64,000 nucleotides of DNA from Coprinus comatus (Eukaryota; Basidiomycota; Agaricomycetes; Agaricales; Agaricaceae), in contig JAWPGT010000011.1 in NCBI GenBank assembly GCA_034638255.1, positions 1 to 64,000 of the forward strand, read 5' to 3'. Below the pieces are notes generated by a model. The model was not told where the DNA came from and made no database searches. It saw only the letters and a program-made list of their open reading frames with translations. Below are positions 1-16,214 of the stretch, one piece after another. A program made the position numbers and the translations under genes. How positions within the stretch are numbered: position 1 is the stretch's first letter; every line of letters begins with the position of its first letter.

Positions 1-1205
1 CGAAGTTGATTGCGCTGTGGGAAGGATTGGAGGTGTAGTGAGCAATACTCTGGTACTAGGTCCCAGGTGAGTCACTCTAACTAAATATGTAATATTTCGC
101 TTGATACATGTTTTAATCCTTATGATTTTAGGCTCATTACAACCGTCTTGACGACGCCGTCCGAACAGTGCCATCCGCACTCCGCACTACCCAAAACTCC
201 GGTGCCGACACACTCCTCTCTGGTGAGTTACCATATATGTTCCTCCCCAACTAAATATTTAATATGTCACTCAATATCTATGCACTCCTTTTGTATCTAG
301 GCTCATTAAAATCACCTAAATGACGCCGTTCGAACGATACCATTTACACTGCACACTGTCCAAAACCCCTGTGCCGACATGCACATCTCTGGTAAGTTAC
401 CACATATGTTCCTCCCCAACGAAATAACTGATATATCATTCAATATCTGTGCACTCCTCCTGTACTTAGGTTCGTTAAAACCGTCTAAACGGCGTTGTTA
501 CAACGATACTATCCGCACCACGTACCCCTCAAAACTCATGTACCGACATGCAGATCTTTGGTAAGTTACTATATATATATTACTCTCCAACTAAATAACT
601 AATAACTCGCCCATTTCTTATCCAATCCTTTTGTGTTTAGGCTCGTTATAACCACATTAACCGCCCCTTTCCAACGCTGGTACTCGCACGCCGTACAGTC
701 GAGTATCATGCTTCGTGTGATGTGATCTTTGTAACACATCATCCAAGGTTCGCTTTTTCTCTCCATTTTATGTTAATAATTACTTATTTCACTATTACAG
801 TCTCTATTCTGATACAAAGGTATAAGAATGTATTAATACTGTAGACTAAGTTAGTATATCACATGTATTATTACAACTTCAATGATATTTTTTTTATTGT
901 CCTTATTCCCTTACTTGGTGTGACCTTGAGAGTACTTGAATTATCCTGAAAATGCAAATAAAATCCTGTAAAATATAATTACAAGGTAGAAAAGTAACTT
1001 TTATGTGCTGTCCAAGTACGTTCAAAGCTATTCAAGTACACCCAAGTTAGAGGGACCTACTTGGAGCTCCTTGGGACAAATTTTCCAAGGAACTCCAAGG
1101 ATAATTTTACTCTTCTTTGAATTCTATTGGGGTGTACTTGGAGCTCCTTGGATGCCTTTCTAAGTAACTTCAAGTACCTCCAAGGACATGCGCGAAATCC
1201 TGATG
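1..1205 (+). mobile_element. Truncated view of the TA-insertion DNA transposon (left-arm copy)
   Basis: This is the same element as at 6265-8266, in opposite orientation and cut by the window start. Its inner end reads CGCGAAATCCTGATG at about 1191-1205 and is followed by TA (1206-1207) and then kinase coding sequence. It contains three complete 91-nt exon-like repeat units and a subterminal zone rich in ACTTGG/CCAAGT words. It was carried here with the inverted duplication and is not an independent insertion, because the flanking kinase sequence is the same in both arms. Confidence 0.85.
132..730 (+). repeat. Tandem array of exon-like units (left-arm copy)
   Basis: Units repeat every 168-172 bp. 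Complete exon-like segments lie at 132-222, 301-391 and 470-560, each exactly 91 nt. Each is preceded by a pyrimidine-rich tract ending in TAG and followed by GTGAGT or GTAAGT. The last unit, from about 642, has lost the 5' splice signal and runs into AT-rich DNA. This mirrors 6740-7339 of the right arm. Frames are not conserved, since 91 is not a multiple of three and the units hold stops, so it is not an ordinary repeated coding exon. Confidence 0.8.
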
Positions 1206-1207
1206 TA

Positions 1208-2608
1208 TTGAGGCACGCGAGTTTGAAGCTGAGGGTGACGAACAAGAACTACATGTAGATCATCTCTACCCCGAAGACAGCCAGAGATTTCCCTTCGAAA
1301 AGAACACCACTAAAGGTTGTGATACTCGAGCACAACTGGCATCCCACGCTGGTGCCACTATGGCTACGCAATATTGAAATCACTTACTCACTGTACTAAT
1401 TGTCGGAAAGAAAGCATGTTTCATCAAGTGGGATCGTTCTTTGGCTGTCGTCACTAGATCCTTTGACATAACCAAGGAACCTCTCCTGCTGTTTGAATGT
1501 ATCGGCCATGGGAAACATGTTTATGTCTAAGAGATGGGTTCGGAAGGAAAGTAAATTGAATATATCTGATCTACAATTGAGCGTCCTTGTTCTTGACGTT
1601 GTTGGCCGTAGTTTGGTTGCATTTCACAAGGTATATGATCTTATTGGTGGATTGGCTGATGCAATACAAGGTATGTATTGATGATCATTGAAAGTTTTTC
1701 TACATACACTAAACTGACTTGAGTAGCGTATGAGGAAGCGTTGGCAAAAGCGCATATTATGCACCGTGATATTAGTCCCCAACAATATTCTTCTCGTTCC
1801 GAATGGTAGCAAGTCTTGGAAAGGTATACTCATTGATTGGGATCATGCTTTTGAAAAGGATGTGAAATCGGAAAATAGCCTTGCATGCCGCGCAGTGAGT
1901 TTCTCGATATCTAAAATATCCTCTTCTTCGTCTCTGACCAATGTCATGACACGACATACCTAGGGAACTTGGCAATTCATGTCTATTTGGCTGCTCAAAA
2001 ATGATCAAGCAAAACACACACCCTCAGATGACCGCGAATCGGCACTCCACGTTCTTTTGTGGATATGCCTTCGGTATCTAAAACATAATCTGAGTGCACA
2101 AAAGCTTGCCCGTTACCTCAATTCATTTGACTATTGTGTTGTATATGATGGGACACATATGGGTGGAGAATTAAAAAAGGAAATGTTATTTTGTTGGGGT
2201 GAAGCAGAACTTCCCATCAAATTCAATATCGAGCCGATCACAGATCTTCTACAAGATCTTGTTCAAGAATTCCGCAAACGCTACCTGCCTCTTAGTTTGA
2301 GGCCTTCCAATTATCAAGATTCCATTGCACAAACATTAGAGAATCCACATTGGCTTGTCAACACCCTCCGAGACACCCGCGAGAAACTTCCGGAACTGGA
2401 AAAGGGGGATTGGGTTGATAACATCAAAAACATCCTGAACAAGGGTCTGCGTGCAGCCTTATATCGAACATCTCATATGTACGATGCCTACACTCTGAAG
2501 AGTAGTGATCGTGAGAGAGTCACTCCTGCGAATACAATTGGGAGCTGTGGTAGTAACAATAGTGATCTGGAGCTACCATCCAAACGTGCTAGAACTAAAA
2601 CTAATTAA
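1208..2608 (+). pseudogene. FunK1-type kinase, 3' part, dead copy (left arm)
   Basis: This is the C-terminal two-thirds of a fungal FunK1-family kinase, orthologous in layout to the intact copy at 13573-16214. It starts directly after the transposon end, so the N-terminus is absent on this side. Breaks seen: a TGA codon at about 1376 where the intact gene has CGA (Arg), a 437-bp deletion joining about 1497 to 1498 that removes most of the N-lobe region, and an extra C after HRDISP near 1780 that shifts frame in the catalytic loop. The 209-codon tail from 1979 is open. After 2508 the tail resembles the intact third copy (ends SKRARTKTN) and not the right-arm copy. A product is very unlikely to be functional. 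Confidence 0.85.
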
Positions 2609-4425: not shown

Positions 4426-6262
4426 TTAAGTGGGGTCTATCCTAGCACGTTTGGCTGATAGTTCCGAATCACTATTGTCACTACTACCACAACGCTCAAT
4501 GTCCTTCGCAGGAGGGACTCTATGCTCACTACTCTTCAGAGTGTAGGCATCGTACATATGAGATGTTCGATATAAGGCTGCACGCAGACCCTTGTTCAGG
4601 ATGTTTTTGATGTTATCAACCCAATCCCCCTTTTCCAGTTCCGGAAGTTTCTCGCGGGTGTCTCGGAGGGTGTTGACAAGCCAATGTGGATTCTCTAATG
4701 TTTGTGCAATGGAATCTTGATAATTGGAAGGCCTCAAACTAAGAGGCAGGTAGCGTTTGCGGAATTCTTGAACAAGATCTTGTAGAAGATCTGTGATCGG
4801 CTCGATATTGAATTTGATGGGAAGTTCTGCTTCACCCCAACAAAATAACATTTCCTTTTTTAATTCTCCACCCATATGTGTCCCATCATATACAACACAA
4901 TAGTCAAATGAATTGAGGTAACGGGCAAGCTTTTGTGCACTCAGATTATGTTTTAGATACCGAAGGCATATCCACAAAAGAACGTGGAGTGCCGATTCGC
5001 GGTCATCTGAGGGTGTGTGTTTTGCTTGATCATTTTTGAGCAGCCAAATAGACATGAATTGCCAAGTTCCCTAGGTATGTCGTGTCATGACATTGGTCAG
5101 AGACGAAGAAGAGGATATTTTAGATATCGAGAAACTCACTGCGCGGCATGCAAGGCTATTTTCCGATTTCACATCCTTTTCAAAAGCATGATCCCAATCA
5201 ATGAGTATACCTTTCCAAGACTTGCTACCATTCGGAACGAGAAGAATATTGTTGGGACTAATATCACGGTGCATAATATGCGCTTTTGCCAACGCTTCCT
5301 CATACGCTACTCAAGTCAGTTTAGTGTATGTAGAAAAACTTTCAATGATCATCAATACATACCTTGTATTGCATCAGCCAATCCACCAATAAGATCATAT
5401 ACCTTGTGAAATGCAACCAAACTACGGCCAACAACGTCAAGAACAAGGACGCTCAATTGTAGATCAGATATATTCAATTTACTTTCCTTCCGAACCCATC
5501 TCTTAGACATAAACATGTTTCCCATGGCCGATACACCCCAGTCCCCACCACATATCTTCCCAGCAATATTGCTGACACCTGCATCCTCCAGCTTTGTGTA
5601 AATATCAGATTCGGAGATCCTACGAGGATTATGCCAAGAATCTTTGATGTAGCATACTCGGTGCTGACCATCAAGGTCGAGTTGTATGGCGGCGCATGAG
5701 CAAGAGCATCGTCCAAAGGGAGAGAGTCCCCGTTCATTACAGTGAGGAGCAGGAACAATGAATGTGTGATGTTGGAAATTGAGTTTTAAAAATGGTTGGG
5801 TCGCAATGTCAATATTCTTAAGGAACTCCTGACCTGCAAGTCCTAGCCAAAGTTCGGGAGCCATGTTCTTCAAATGGTCATGAGCGAGTTGAGCCTCCTT
5901 TTTTGTTGCAGGTTGTACATTGGGATTACTCCCGTGTTGAGTAGGAGTGAGTTGTCGGAAACGCTTGAAGAATTCAAACAGCAGGAGAGGTTCCTTGGTT
6001 ATGTCAAAGGATCTAGTGACGACAGCCAAAGAACGATCCCACTTGATGAAACGTGCTTTCTTTCCGACAATTAGTACAGTGAGTAAGTGATTTCAATATT
6101 GCGTAGCCATAGTGGCACCAGCGTGGGATGCCAGTTGTGCTCGAGTATCACAACCTTTAGTGGTGTTCTTTTCGAAGGGAAATCTCTGGCTGTCTTCGGG
6201 GTAGAGATGATCTACATGTAGTTCTTGTTCGTCACCCTCAGCTTCAAACTCGCGTGCCTCAA
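4426..6262 (-). pseudogene. FunK1-type kinase, 3' part (right arm), cut off by a transposon
   Basis: This is the C-terminal part of the kinase whose N-terminal part lies at 8269-9361; the 2,002-bp transposon separates them. The parts preserved from the intact copy are the conserved block ending in ADAIQG, then the exon with HRDISPNNILLV and the IDWDHAF metal-site motif, then a GTWQFMS activation-segment exon and a 209-codon C-terminal exon. A TGA replaces an Arg codon in MATQY-stop-NHLLTVLIVG near 6095, and the same stop occurs in the left arm, so it predates the inverted duplication. Downstream of that stop a 225-codon open frame remains (from 6029). The C-terminal 30 residues differ from those of the other copies. 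Confidence 0.85.
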
Positions 6263-7470
6263 TACATCAGGATTTCGCGCATGTCCTTGGAGGTACTTGA
6301 AGTTACTTAGAAAGGCATCCAAGGAGCTCCAAGTACACCCCAATAGAATTCAAAGAAGAGTAAAATTATCCTTGGAGTTCCTTGGAAAATTTGTCCCAAG
6401 GAGCTCCAAGTAGGTCCCTCTAACTTGGGTGTACTTGAATAGCTTTGAACGTACTTGGACAGCACATAAAAGTTACTTTTCTACCTTGTAATTATATTTT
6501 ACAGGATTTTATTTGCATTTTCAGGATAATTCAAGTACTCTCAAGGTCACACCAAGTAAGGGAATAAGGACAATAAAAAAAAATATCATTGAAGTTGTAA
6601 TAATACATGTGATATACTAACTTAGTCTACAGTATTAATACATTCTTATACCTTTGTATCAGAATAGAGACTGTAATAGTGAAATAAGTAATTATTAACA
6701 TAAAATGGAGAGAAAAAGCGAACCTTGGATGATGTGTTACAAAGATCACATCACACGAAGCATGATACTCGACTGTACGGCGTGCGAGTACCAGCGTTGG
6801 AAAGGGGCGGTTAATGTGGTTATAACGAGCCTAAACACAAAAGGATTGGATAAGAAATGGGCGAGTTATTAGTTATTTAGTTGGAGAGTAATATATATAT
6901 AGTAACTTACCAAAGATCTGCATGTCGGTACATGAGTTTTGAGGGGTACGTGGTGCGGATAGTATCGTTGTAACAACGCCGTTTAGACGGTTTTAACGAA
7001 CCTAAGTACAGGAGGAGTGCACAGATATTGAATGATATATCAGTTATTTCGTTGGGGAGGAACATATGTGGTAACTTACCAGAGATGTGCATGTCGGCAC
7101 AGGGGTTTTGGACAGTGTGCAGTGTAAATGGTATCGTTCGAACGGCGTCATTTAGGTGATTTTAATGAGCCTAGATACAAAAGGAGTGCATAGATATTGA
7201 GTGACATATTAAATATTTAGTTGGGGAGGAACATATATGGTAACTCACCAGAGAGGAGTGTGTCGGCACCGGAGTTTTGGGTAGTGCGGAGTGCGGATGG
7301 CACTGTTCGGACGGCGTCGTCAAGACGGTTGTAATGAGCCTAAAATCATAAGGATTAAACATGTATCAAGCGAAATATTACATATTTAGTTAGAGTGACT
7401 CACCTGGGACCTAGTACCAGAGTATTGCTCACTACACCTCCAATCCTTCCCCACAGCGCAATCAACTTCG
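4526..7470. repeat. Right arm of the large inverted repeat
   Basis: This is the reverse complement of 1-2508 and is longer by the 437 bp that the left arm lost. It carries the kinase 3' part (minus strand) and part of the 2,002-bp transposon. The first base with a visible partner is 7470 only because the window starts there; the true end may lie further right. The spacer between the arms (2509-4525) is about 2 kb. Confidence 0.95.
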
Positions 7471-8266
7471 GTCAGTCATGGAGGAGTTACGAATGGTCTA
7501 AACGAGCCTAGGTAAATGTCTCTATGTGAAGAAATGAGTGAGACAGCCTCAGGATACTACAGAGTGATGACATACCAATATTATTCATGCCATACCATGA
7601 GAATTAGACCATAGCACGTGTGGCTAGGCTTGTTCGAAGCAAAAAAAAGAGCCAGTTCCAAAGAGCCAAGACACGTGCCAAAGCGTGATGAAATGAGTAC
7701 AACAGACCAAAAACATTGTATGCTTACCTTGTTCAATAAAGTGGCTGTTATAGTACAAGTACTAAACCACGCGACGCGTAACCGCCGTCATTCGAAGCAA
7801 AACGGTGAGACGATTCTAGAGAGCCTAAAAACGTGAGATTTTGTTAGGAATTGAGTGAATAGGGATGTAATGATGTGGCAGATGTATTATGATCTCATGA
7901 GATTGTTGCCATTGGGATGTGACGTGGAGTGAGTGATGTGTGACAAGGAGAGTAGGATGTCACACTCATCCGCTTTTTTTGCAAAGTCCAAATTTGATAA
8001 CATCAAAAGTTTCAAAACATATGTGATGATCAATAATCATTGATCAGAACAAAAAAAACAAATAGTGTTAATAATGTAAACTAAAGTTTAACATTTTTCG
8101 TGAGCAAGTAAAGCTTGAGGATTTACTTGGTTCTATCCTTGACCTAACTTGGAACTAAAAAGCTCCTCAGAGTACCTTGGGACATTTTTCACCAAGGATG
8201 TACAAGTACAACAAGTAGTCTAAGCAACCCTAAGGTAGACCCAAGCAAATGTGCAATTTCCTGATG
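6265..8266. mobile_element. 2,002-bp DNA transposon with TA target duplication
   Basis: Both ends are visible. One end starts CATCAGGATTTCGCGCATG at 6265. The other, read on the minus strand from 8266, starts CATCAGGAAATTGCACATT. This gives imperfect terminal inverted repeats that stay similar for at least 25 bp, followed by subterminal ACTTGG/CCAAGT-rich zones of about 200 bp. TA flanks both ends (6263-6264 and 8267-8268). Removing the element with one TA rejoins the kinase reading (GATGG-TA-TTGAGG), matching the uninterrupted copy. No transposase frame is visible, so the element is probably non-autonomous. The TA duplication suggests a Tc1/mariner-type or similar superfamily, but the ends do not let me assign a family. 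Confidence 0.88.
6740..7830 (-). repeat. Tandem 160-172-bp repeats carrying exon-like 91-nt modules
   Basis: The landmark GAGCC or GAACC recurs at 6826, 6998, 7167, 7336, 7504, 7663 and 7821 (spacing 172, 169, 169, 168, 159, 158). Read on the minus strand, each unit has a TAG acceptor followed by G(C/T)TC, an exon-like segment, and a GTAAGT or GTGAGT donor. Segments: 7824-7738 (87 nt), 7507-7404 (104 nt), 7339-7249, 7170-7080 and 7001-6911 (91 nt each), and a last unit from 6829 lacking a donor. The 7663 unit has lost its acceptor (TTG). Only 7339-7249 is fully open in a frame giving an ordinary-looking peptide (HYNRLDDAVRTV...); others hold stops. Confidence 0.8.
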
Positions 8267-8268
8267 TA

Positions 8269-9361
8269 CCATCAGTTGCAACATCCATTTCTGGGGAAAC
8301 ATAGAGCACTTTGGCACCCTGGTCTTGGATATCTTCATAATCCTCCTCATCCTGGACACTCTCCTGAACCGTCATGTCCATGTATTCTGCCTCTTCATCA
8401 TTTGGTTCCCCGTCGTCAAAAGCGTCGTATCCCTCATTCGGCTTAATCTCAATCCAGCAATGAAGGTTTGCAAAATCCATGGTTTGGGGGTTTTGGCGAG
8501 GAACGAATGGAACTCCGGAATAGACGGAAATATCGACACTTTGAGATAAGCAGTCCTTGTCATGGTACTTGTGACTATCTTTGAATCCTAAACCGGGACC
8601 TATATCATTTGGCATATTCTTCCATCGGCAAAGACCATGCCATCCATTGAAAGCATTGACCTGTGCAAAGAAGGTGAGCACACACTTGAAGATCAAAAGA
8701 CATGACAAACACACAAAGTTTTCATACGAGTCGGACTCAGTATAGCTGGGGAGTCTGACAATCATATCACGTCTGTGTTTCGAAGGGTTTCGCTGCTTGT
8801 ATAATATAGGTGTCTCCTTGTTCCAAGGCATAAAGGCATCGAAGAATTTATGGATTGGCATTGGTCCGACATATTGTCCTATCGTTTCGGCCAACACACG
8901 GTCCCTCGTCTTCTTGAGACCCTCCATTGTAACTTCAAAGAGCTCATAGGAAGCTGTCAGAATGGTAGAGAGTGATGTTGAGAATGAGAGTGAAGTTGAG
9001 AGAGAGTTAAGCTCAGACACAGACACAGACACAGACACAGAAAGAAGGGAATTGATTGGATGGTTTGGTTAAGACATGAGGGACTTATATATCTACCAGA
9101 ACAAAGAACAACCAAAAGGGGAGAACAATAAGGACCCTTGCCAGCACACAAAGGGAATATGTAAGTAACATAATAAGGGAAAATAACATTATGAAAGAGT
9201 CCAGAACATCAGGATAAGATAAGTGGAGTGATTAGGAAAGATGGATAAGATAAGGAGATATCTGGGAAAAACCTAACAGAAGCAAGCTTGAGCTGTCTCG
9301 TGTTTCCATTTTGGTCATCACATTTTGCAGGTGCTATGGGCGATTGAGCATGTTGCGGCAT
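8269..9361 (-). pseudogene. FunK1-type kinase, 5' part, split by a solo LTR
   Basis: This is the N-terminal portion of the broken kinase. The start ATG is at 9361 (MPQHAQSPIAPAKC...), aligned with MSQPAQPPATPRKR of the intact copy. The frame runs to RQLKLAS, is interrupted by a 324-bp solo LTR (8955-9278), and resumes as YELFEVTMEGLKKTRDRVLA. An intron (GTGTGT...CAG) follows SYENF, as in the intact gene. Coding then continues through MPNDIGPGLGFKDSHKY to MDVATDG at the transposon junction. The rest of the gene is at 4426-6262. The open frame running from 9038 into the transposon is a by-product of the two insertions and not a natural start and stop. Confidence 0.85.
8955..9278 (-). mobile_element. 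Solo LTR of a retrotransposon
   Basis: The 324-bp insert begins TGTTAGG and ends CTGACA on the minus strand (TG...CA ends, imperfectly inverted). It is flanked by a perfect 5-bp direct repeat GCTTC (plus strand GAAGC at 8950-8954 and 9279-9283). Removing it with one repeat restores the kinase frame RQLKLA-S-YELFEV. A TATATAAG box lies on the minus strand near 9090, compatible with LTR promoter orientation. It includes a short (CAGACA)n tract at about 9013-9040. No internal retrotransposon sequence is present, as expected after LTR-LTR recombination. Confidence 0.88.
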
Positions 9362-13572: not shown

Positions 13573-16214
13573 TTAATTAGTTTTAGTTCTAGCACGTTTG
13601 GATGGTGGCTCCGGTTCACTATTGTTACTACCACAGCTTCTAATTTCATTCGCAGGAGTGACTCTCTGATGATCACTACTCTTCAGAGTATACGCATCGT
13701 ACATATGAGATGTTCGACACGATACAGATATACGCGGACCCTTGTTCAGAATGTCTGTAATATTATCCACCCAATCTGGAGCATCCCCTTTTTTCGGTCT
13801 CGGAAGCTTCTCGCGGGCATCTCGGAGGGCGTTGACAAGCCAATGTGGATTTTCTAATGTTTGTGCTATGGATTCTTGATGTTCCCTCATGAGATCATTG
13901 TATTTGGGGTTGGATTTCGAAAACCTAAGAGAATTGTAGCGTTCAGCAACTCGATCAACAAGGTCTTGTAGAAGGTCTGTAATCGGCTCGATATCAAATT
14001 TGATGGGAAGTTCTTGTTCACCCCAACAAAATAACATTTCCTTTTTTAATTCTCCACCCATATGTGTCCCATCATATACGACACAATAGTCAAATGAATT
14101 GAGACAACGGACAAGCTGTTTTGCATCAAGATTATGTTTTAGATGCCGAAGGCATATCCATAAAAGAACGTGGAGCGCCGATTCGCGGTCATCTGAGGGT
14201 GCGTGTTTTGCTTGATCATTTTTGAGCAGCCGAATAGACATGAATTGCCAAGTTCCCTAGACAGATTAAACCATAGTATTCGTCAATAATGAAAAAAAGA
14301 GGGTTCAGATTACAAACTCACTGTACGCCATACAGCATCATTTCCCGATTTACCCTCCAAGCTAACATCATAAGCTTGATCCCAATCAATGAGTATACCT
14401 TTCCAAGACTTGCTACCATCCGGAACGAGAAGAATATTATTTGGACTAATATCGCGGTGCATAATACGCGCTTTTTCCAACGCTTCCTCATACGCTATCA
14501 GGTAAACTTAGCGTAGTAAGAATTTCAATGGTCGTTAGTATATACCTTGCATCGCATCAGCCAATCCCCCAATAAGATCATACGCTTTGCGAAATGCAAC
14601 CAAACTACGACCAATGGTATCGAGAACAAGGACACTCAATGTTAGATCACGTATCCTAAGATTACTTTTCTTCCGAACCCATTTCTGAGACGTGTAGTTG
14701 CTTCCCATGGCCGATACACCCCAGTCTCCACCACAAATCTTCCCAGCAATATTGCTGACACCTGCTTTCTTGAGCTTTGTGTAAATATCAGATTCGGAGA
14801 TCCTACGAGGATTACGCCAAGAATCTTTGAGGTAGCATACTCGGTGCTGACCATCATGATCGAGTTGTACGGCGGCGCATGAGCGAGAGCATCGTCCAAA
14901 GGGAGAGAGTCCCCGTTCATTACAGTGAGGAGCAGGAACAATGAAAGTGTGATGTTGGAAATTGAGTTTTAAAAATGGTTGGGTCGCAATGTCAATATTC
15001 TTAAGGAACTCCTGACCTGCAAGTCCTAGCCAAAGTTCGGGAGCCATGTTCTTCAAATGGTCACGAGCGAGTTGAGCCTCCTTTTTTGTTGCAGGTTGTA
15101 CATTGGGATTACTCCCACGTTGAGAAAGAGTGAGTTGTCGGAAACGCTTGAAGAATTCAAACAGCAGGAGAGGTTCCTTGGTTATGTCAAAGGATCTAGT
15201 GACGACAGCCAAAGAACGATCCCACTTGATGAAACGTGCTTTCTTTCCGACAATTAGTACAGTGATTAGGTGATTTCGATATTGCATAGCCATAGTGGCA
15301 CCAGCGTGGGATGCCAGTTGTGCTCGAGTATCACAACCTTTAGTGGTGTTCTTTTCGAAGGGAAATCTCTGGCTGTCTTCGGGGTAGAGATGTTCTACGT
15401 GTAGTTCTTGTTCGTCGCCCTCAGCTTCAAACTCGCGGGACTCAATACCGTCAATTGCAACATCTATTTCTGGGGAAACATAGAGCACATCTGCACCTTG
15501 GTCTTGGATATCTTCATCTTCTTCCTCATCCTCAACGTTTTCTTCAGCCATCACGTCAACTTCTTCATTATTTGATTTCCCATCGTCAAAAGCATCATAT
15601 TCCTCGTCAGGCTTGATCTCTACCCAACATTCAAGGTTTGCAAAATCCATCGTTTGGGGTTTTTGGCGAGGAACGAATGGAGCTTGGGAATAGACCGAAA
15701 TGTCAACACCTTGGGATAAACAGTCCTTGTCACGGTATTTATGACTATCTTTAAATTCTAGATTAGGTCCAATATCTTTTGGCATGCCCGTCCATCCGCG
15801 AAGAGCATTGTATTTATTGAAAGCACTGACCTGTACAACGTAGATTAGGAAGCACTTGAAGATGAAGAAATATCACAAAATCACAAAGTTTTCGTAAGAG
15901 TCGGATTCATTACATTTCGGAAGGTTCCGGATTTTTTCTACCCTATCCTTGGAAAGTTTGCGCTGCTTGTAGTCGTAGGGTGTTGCCTCGTTCCATGGCA
16001 GCATTTCTTCCATGAATGTATGGATGGGCATTGGCCCGACATAGTGTCCGGCCGTTTCGGTCAACAGACGATCCCTTGTCTGCTTGAGACTAGACTTAGT
16101 GATTTCGAAGAGCTCATAGGAGGAAACCTTGAGCTGTCGTGGTATTGCTCCTGGAATTATCTGTTGGTGAGTGCGTTTGCGAGGTGTTGCGGGCGGTTGA
16201 GCAGGTTGCGACAT
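13573..16214 (-). CDS. Intact FunK1-type protein kinase
   Basis: Fungal-specific protein kinase of the FunK1 group, the one complete copy here. Four exons give about 823 residues: 16214-15885, 15830-14546, 14494-14322 and 14256-13573, all with GT...AG introns in compatible phase. Visible features: a basic N-terminus (MSQPAQPPATPRKRTHQQ), an acidic middle (DEEEDEDIQDQ), a conserved N-lobe-like block (FFKRFRQL... LGLAGQEFL), the catalytic loop HRDISPNNILLV, IDWDQAY in place of DFG, then RTGTWQFMS as activation segment. The tail ends in a basic SKRARTKTN, possibly a nuclear signal. HRD Asp and the following Asn are present, so catalysis is possible. Substrates are unknown. Two broken paralogues lie nearby. 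Confidence 0.88.

Follow-up and report, generated by a model that had tools for sequence, protein, structure and literature searches.

A non-autonomous PlavakaB-like transposon of Coprinus comatus with a tandem array of exon-like units, most likely a spliced noncoding transcription unit

The window analyzed here is the whole 64,000-nucleotide stretch at the start of contig C11 of the Coprinus comatus genome (35.7 Mb in 134 contigs). Close to its beginning, the frame of a fungal protein kinase gene is interrupted by a 2,002-bp element bounded by inverted repeats; the kinase flanks on the two sides of the element join into a single 323-aa frame, which runs in the same sense as the array of exon-like units that the element carries. 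The locus displays the following features:

4429..6262, minus strand: 3′ portion of the kinase gene (PF17667, fungal protein kinase) into which the element is inserted
8269..9068, minus strand: 5′ part of the kinase open frame, without a Pfam match of its own
6265..8266, minus strand (array sense): whole element, 2,002 bp, a non-autonomous PlavakaB-like DNA transposon with borders common to the genomic copies
8241..8266, minus strand: terminal inverted repeat, 5′ side in the array sense
6265..6290, minus strand: terminal inverted repeat, 3′ side in the array sense
6263..6264: left TA target duplication, from the flanks of copies
8267..8268: right TA target duplication, from the flanks of copies
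7825..8240, minus strand: region upstream of the array, a possible promoter, with a TTTGGACTT.. stretch that by eye is common to other families
1..1205, plus strand: second, inverted copy of the element, cut by the contig start

The contig opens with a near-perfect palindrome (window 1-2508 and 4526-7451) that contains two copies of the element and two copies of the kinase gene, of which the left kinase copy is shorter by about 437 bp; the palindrome extends beyond the element into the kinase gene. The left-arm partners of the exon-like units that a preliminary description of this DNA had set beside those of the right arm do exist, but they belong to the truncated second copy, which is 100% identical to the right copy over the arms, and being the same sequence within a palindrome they lend no independent support. 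A near-identical arrangement is found at the end of contig C45, and the two may be one region assembled twice. A further PF17667 kinase is encoded at 14538-15872 of the window (minus strand).

Alignment of the window with 20 genomic stretches placed the borders of the element near 6265 and 8266, and these shared borders replace the extent of 6740-7830 proposed earlier, which was too small. The window copy has CATCAGGA..TCCTGATG ends, and the inverted pair formed by 6263-6290 and 8241-8268 is 79% complementary. The genome search for more copies suggested in the preliminary description recovered at least 40 places, including the right copy and the partial left copy of the window (40 of 53 candidates were scored, which makes this a lower bound, and partial matches are included). 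Identity to the window copy is at least 98% in 24 of the 35 aligned copies and 89% to 94% in the other 11, and a search with a single unit gave at least 87 matches (40 of 52 candidates scored) that by eye fall within copies of this family (family 1). Among the 28 copies aligned over at least 1,700 bases, with the window copy and L009 sharing one site, 21 have clear CATCAGGA..TCCTGATG ends and seven are without a clear end; the target duplications of the 21 are of 2 bp in 16 copies and, by eye, of 3 bp in L016, with none in the remaining four. These ends and duplications fit the published PlavakaB transposons, for which termini of the form CATCA..TGATG and target duplications of 2 or 3 bp are given in the consulted excerpt of PMC12730594. 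No Plavaka transposase is found within this element; the genome as a whole has 66 rows of Plavaka transposase matches. On contig C39 there is a 12.5-kb Plavaka-type element (C39:748-13272; L043 and L044) with CATCAGGA..TCCTGATG ends, a TA duplication and PF18759 matches, one matched stretch of which has stop codons; at its end, 3 of 26 positions differ. Adjoining the transposase matches of this C39 element is a divergent gene in which a 177-nt exon-intron unit occurs three times in tandem.

At L041 (C29:182900-187600), two shorter family-1 copies, 99.6% identical to each other, lie in inverted orientation and are separated by about 0.84 kb, which includes part of a retrotransposon-like frame. 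This middle segment was considered as cargo and rejected, since by eye the frame is the same retrotransposon-like frame that is interrupted in L011 and is therefore insertion-site sequence. The four copies L036-L039 (on C98, C33, C3 and C102) are nearly identical, share their flanks and have no matching ends; three lie no more than 20 kb from the end of a contig, and all are probably part of a longer repeat.

The array within the element consists of seven units, all on the minus strand:

7728..7824, minus strand: unit 1 exon-like segment, 97 nt, acceptor TTTTTAG, donor GTAAGC at 7727
7576..7666, minus strand: unit 2 exon-like segment, 91 nt, TTG at the acceptor, donor GTATGT at 7575
7404..7507, minus strand: unit 3 exon-like segment, 104 nt, donor GTGAGT at 7403
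7249..7339, minus strand: unit 4 exon-like segment, 91 nt, donor GTGAGT at 7248
7080..7170, minus strand: unit 5 exon-like segment, 91 nt, donor GTAAGT at 7079
6911..7001, minus strand: unit 6 exon-like segment, 91 nt, donor GTAAGT at 6910
6720..6830, minus strand: unit 7, acceptor present, read as the last exon, with 6720 as nominal 3′ end

The unit starts (7824, 7666, 7507, 7339, 7170, 7001 and 6830) are spaced by 158, 159, 168, 169, 169 and 171 nt, and the array has six donors in total and TAG acceptors at six of the seven units, which confirms the earlier observation of tandem units of 158-172 bp with their own splice signals inside a transposon. Likewise, the three right-arm segments described as exactly 91 nt (7249-7339, 7080-7170 and 6911-7001) are of that length, as is unit 2. 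The array is not uniform in its signals: the acceptor of unit 2 is TTG in the window copy and in eight of the nine compared sequences (TAG in L033), that of unit 4 is lost in four of the nine, and unit 7 shows no donor of the types searched. No GTRAGY donor was seen in the element upstream of unit 1, yet unit 1 keeps an acceptor.

The array is not unique to this family, as other families with CATCA..TGATG ends carry related units. A second family is represented by L042 (1,353 bp) and its relatives L046 (1,310 bp) and L049 (1,328 bp), with an aa target duplication at L049 and none clear at L042 or L046, and a third by L048 (1,812 bp, with an aa duplication) and by L050, of which one end was fetched. 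In L045 (480-1916), exon-like units form two divergently oriented arrays, one on each strand, and no recognizable termini were seen within the 3 kb fetched. Across the families, the mean identity of 22 exons, picked for having donors, is 45%. Unit starts were also located blind to donors, by searching eight stretches for a 22-letter exon-start motif of which at least 15 letters had to match; 20 of the 23 starts recovered have a donor 70-112 nt downstream, the background being 12% over all positions of these stretches and 5% in host DNA, and 18 of the 23 are preceded by AG. The 23 exclude some known units that score below the cut-off (e.g., unit 3 of the window), and because the units share descent and the motif was derived from them, the 20 of 23 are not independent trials. 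Donors thus persist where exon interiors no longer align well. The three starts that lack a donor are the last units of the window copy, L045 and L048, and the five that lack an AG are the first units of L045, L048 and L050, in all of which the donor is present, together with unit 2 of the window copy and unit 3 of L050. First units without an acceptor, as in one family, and last units without a donor are the layout of a multi-exon gene. A branch-like word, CTNAY, is present at branch-region positions in 12 of 13 introns by counting window and in 11 of 13 in an item-by-item list (mean of 7.7 in shuffles, P 0.012). Donor, branch and acceptor words follow one another in order with the logic of first and last exons, the exceptions being the acceptor of unit 2 and unit 1 in the window copy and unit 3 of L050. 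An apparent shift of the unit 4 donor in family 3 was dropped, as L045 is missing the sequence between the end of unit 4 and the unit 6 donor, and different units had been compared.

Splice dinucleotides vary less than the interior of the array, with modest support from each test (P 0.007 to 0.053). Over nine subfamily sequences, the donor GT is kept in 53 of 53 cells and the acceptor AG in 47 of 52 cells at six acceptors (48 of 61 when unit 2 is counted). By parsimony, the 26 GT/AG sites took 3 steps, whereas the rest of the array averages 0.44 per site (P 0.007); when they are compared to non-CpG sites only, P is 0.053. The 26 sites include the unit 2 acceptor, and without it there are 2 steps in 24 sites (P 0.003 and 0.029, respectively). 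Between L048 and L050 of family 3, 1 of 24 GT/AG positions differs, against 214 of 1,046 others (20.5%; P 0.03), and in each of the three pairs of family 2 none of the 8 GT/AG positions differs, against 10-24% elsewhere. Steps per site are 0.53 in exons and 0.32 in introns overall; exon sites took 0.32 steps outside CpG and 1.26 at CpG, so that outside CpG exons resemble introns (0.29), with the flanks slower at 0.14. Among the singletons in 22 young copies, 51 of 79 are C>T or G>A. These same copies were tried as a mutation baseline and set aside for having too few changes (2 singletons at 54 core sites, 53 at 943 other array sites). As a good part of the interior drift falls at CpG, some of the contrast drawn earlier between kept splice signals and a drifting interior is mutation pressure, and some acceptors have been lost; what stands of it is the slower change at GT/AG. 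Equal drift at splice sites and elsewhere is accordingly not what we find, though narrowly so. At the level of single units, the donor columns of units 4-6 are conserved, as are many other columns.

Codon periodicity was detected neither in the three family-1 exons of 91 nt nor in five family-3 exons (P 0.09 to 1 for the latter), stops occur in most frames of most exons, and the longest unspliced frames in eight sequences are of 63-82 aa. Spliced in silico, the best frames in eight family-1 sequences reach 38-103 aa. The extremes, a 103-aa frame in both L032 and L033 (reached by 5% and 0% of 100 shuffles, respectively) and a 91-aa frame in the window copy (reached by 3-7%), come from particular exon choices among many tried. 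Family 3 yields spliced frames of 84, 41 and 89 aa, and 3% of shuffles equal the 89-aa one. In six of eight family-1 subfamily sequences, units 5-7 when spliced share an open frame of 62 aa, and 21-40% of shuffles yield one as long. Our reading is that the recurrent and long frames are due to chance. The earlier expectation that an ordinary protein is unlikely is supported, with no evident protein and no codon periodicity, yet with this one short frame recurring.

Taken together, we judge it on balance probable that the element is a non-autonomous PlavakaB-like transposon with a multi-exon transcription unit of its own that has no evident protein, a judgement that takes in its role (see below). 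The array itself is most likely a spliced, noncoding transcription unit, borne by the transposon and grown by exon duplication. It would comprise the upstream region, a first exon, internal exons bearing both splice sites and a terminal exon that has only an acceptor, and the exons would be tandem copies of one exon-plus-intron unit that was multiplied and then diverged. Based on the signals and their order, we infer that the unit is transcribed and spliced. Since splicing signals are mostly kept without an evident protein, splicing or its RNA may matter to the element and, more weakly, we infer as most likely one of two roles. In the first, efficient splicing would keep the transcript out of a splicing-coupled RNAi pathway of the Cryptococcus SCANR type; in Cryptococcus, poorly spliced transposon RNA is a template for siRNA (PMC5851062). 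The genome has profile matches to the Piwi domain (19 rows) and to DNA methylases (5 rows), by which splicing-coupled RNAi and methylation are possible in this fungus. In the second, efficient splicing would keep the element transcribed and hence open to a transposase acting in trans. Under either role, exon interiors would be nearly free filler. Of the three roles offered in the preliminary description, a repetitive spliced noncoding RNA is the best fit. A structured RNA was considered and rejected, as eight exon or intron stretches show no folding advantage over their shuffles (z -1.03 to 0.17); the window has no Rfam match at the gathering threshold.

The most serious competitor is that the array is decayed coding sequence, its exons descending from a transposon accessory gene with repeated coding exons and its splice sites being inherited from living partners rather than selected. 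The repeated 177-nt units in the gene of the C39 element make such an origin conceivable, and in some exons read from the first base a recurring NRL..AVRT-like string can be seen by eye. It is because of the recurrent and long spliced frames described above that we leave this account a real, if minor, share of the probability. Against it, apart from the missing periodicity, the stops and the ease with which shuffles match the 62-aa length, an exon of 91 nt shifts the frame, and the array was not found in the C39 element, which resembles it only at the end and in short words. The related suggestion of a duplicated exon of a dead gene is likewise weakened, as several diverged families keep the layout, although a short frame does recur in one of them. 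That the array instead acts at the level of DNA, with units of ~147-171 bp whose GC-richer exons and AT-rich introns position nucleosomes or bind a protein and whose splice words are incidental, we regard as unlikely. Its main point is the rarity of gaps: summed over six subfamily sequences each compared with the window, family 1 has 2 gaps with 742 substitutions in the array and 23 with 206 in the flanks, and L048 and L050 differ by 2 gaps with 167 substitutions in the array and 20 with 122 in the flanks. The composition also agrees (exons 42-59% GC, introns 28-45%). However, 16 of the 23 family-1 flank gaps are in homopolymers, which leaves 1 against 7, and spacing predicts neither ordered donors, acceptors and branch-like words nor first units without acceptors and last units without donors.

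Two further accounts fare worse. An old tandem duplication of an exon-intron piece without function, whose splice words have not yet decayed, would agree with the modest strength of each conservation test alone and with the loss of some acceptors; donors still end 20 of the 23 units across several families despite the 45% mean exon identity, and we hold this account to be very improbable. We give the least credence of all to a splicing trap or mobile intron by which host transcripts would be spared the insertion, the harm-limiting role that had also been proposed. The window copy does lie in the kinase frame in the sense of its array, and plant elements of the En/Spm type can be spliced from transcripts (PMC4219821, in the part consulted). 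Nevertheless, five insertion sites in or at the edge of open frames of at least 300 aa divide into two sense and three antisense, the splice signals are more than 400 nt inside the element, and a last unit with an acceptor and without a donor would capture a host transcript and not release it.

The usual description of a non-autonomous DNA transposon is of two ends that enclose dispensable filler. In the present case, the order of splice signals of a gene seems to be kept by several families without an evident protein. We tentatively posit, as a possibility that we rate below even chances, a transposon lineage whose sole cargo is a repeated-exon RNA gene, and in which the conserved information is the act of splicing (its signals, their order and the first and last exons) and not the exon sequence, serving to evade splicing-coupled silencing or to stay transcribed. 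If the RNA is made and spliced, it could be tested directly on this element whether a transposon is protected by splicing itself, which would be the converse of the Cryptococcus case. The array would also illustrate the growth of a multi-exon RNA gene from a single exon-intron unit duplicated in tandem, and the C39 element shows that tandem exon growth occurs in a related transposon. Our literature searches, with Repbase, some preprints and most subscription papers outside their scope, found no element of this layout.

Among the closest known systems is PlavakaB of the CMCT clade (PMC12730594, consulted in excerpt), with which the element shares the CATCA..TGATG termini and duplications of 2 bp (once 3 bp); it differs in having no transposase and in carrying a noncoding exon-like array, a feature not mentioned for PlavakaB in that excerpt. 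The accessory gene of the C39 element, a transposon whose ends are of the same type, is likewise built of exon-intron units in tandem, but its exons look coding and its sequence is unrelated to the array. The transposon-derived long noncoding RNAs of Blumeria (PMC10648671) are a precedent for noncoding RNA from fungal transposons; they are described as coming from transposon-derived antisense sequences, and the excerpt consulted does not mention a tandem exon array. Introners (PMC9860276, in the part consulted) are also mobile sequences with splice signals, but they add an intron to host genes, whereas here a whole array is added, which is found in exons in both orientations. An introner or mobile intron would need splice sites at or close to its ends for the entire element to leave host transcripts; the donors and acceptors found here are more than 400 nt inside the element on either side. 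Finally, splicing of transposon sequence is shared with the En/Spm (CACTA) elements, which, in the account consulted (PMC4219821), leave with an intron or via terminal splice sites, whereas the element described here has many internal exons and introns of its own.
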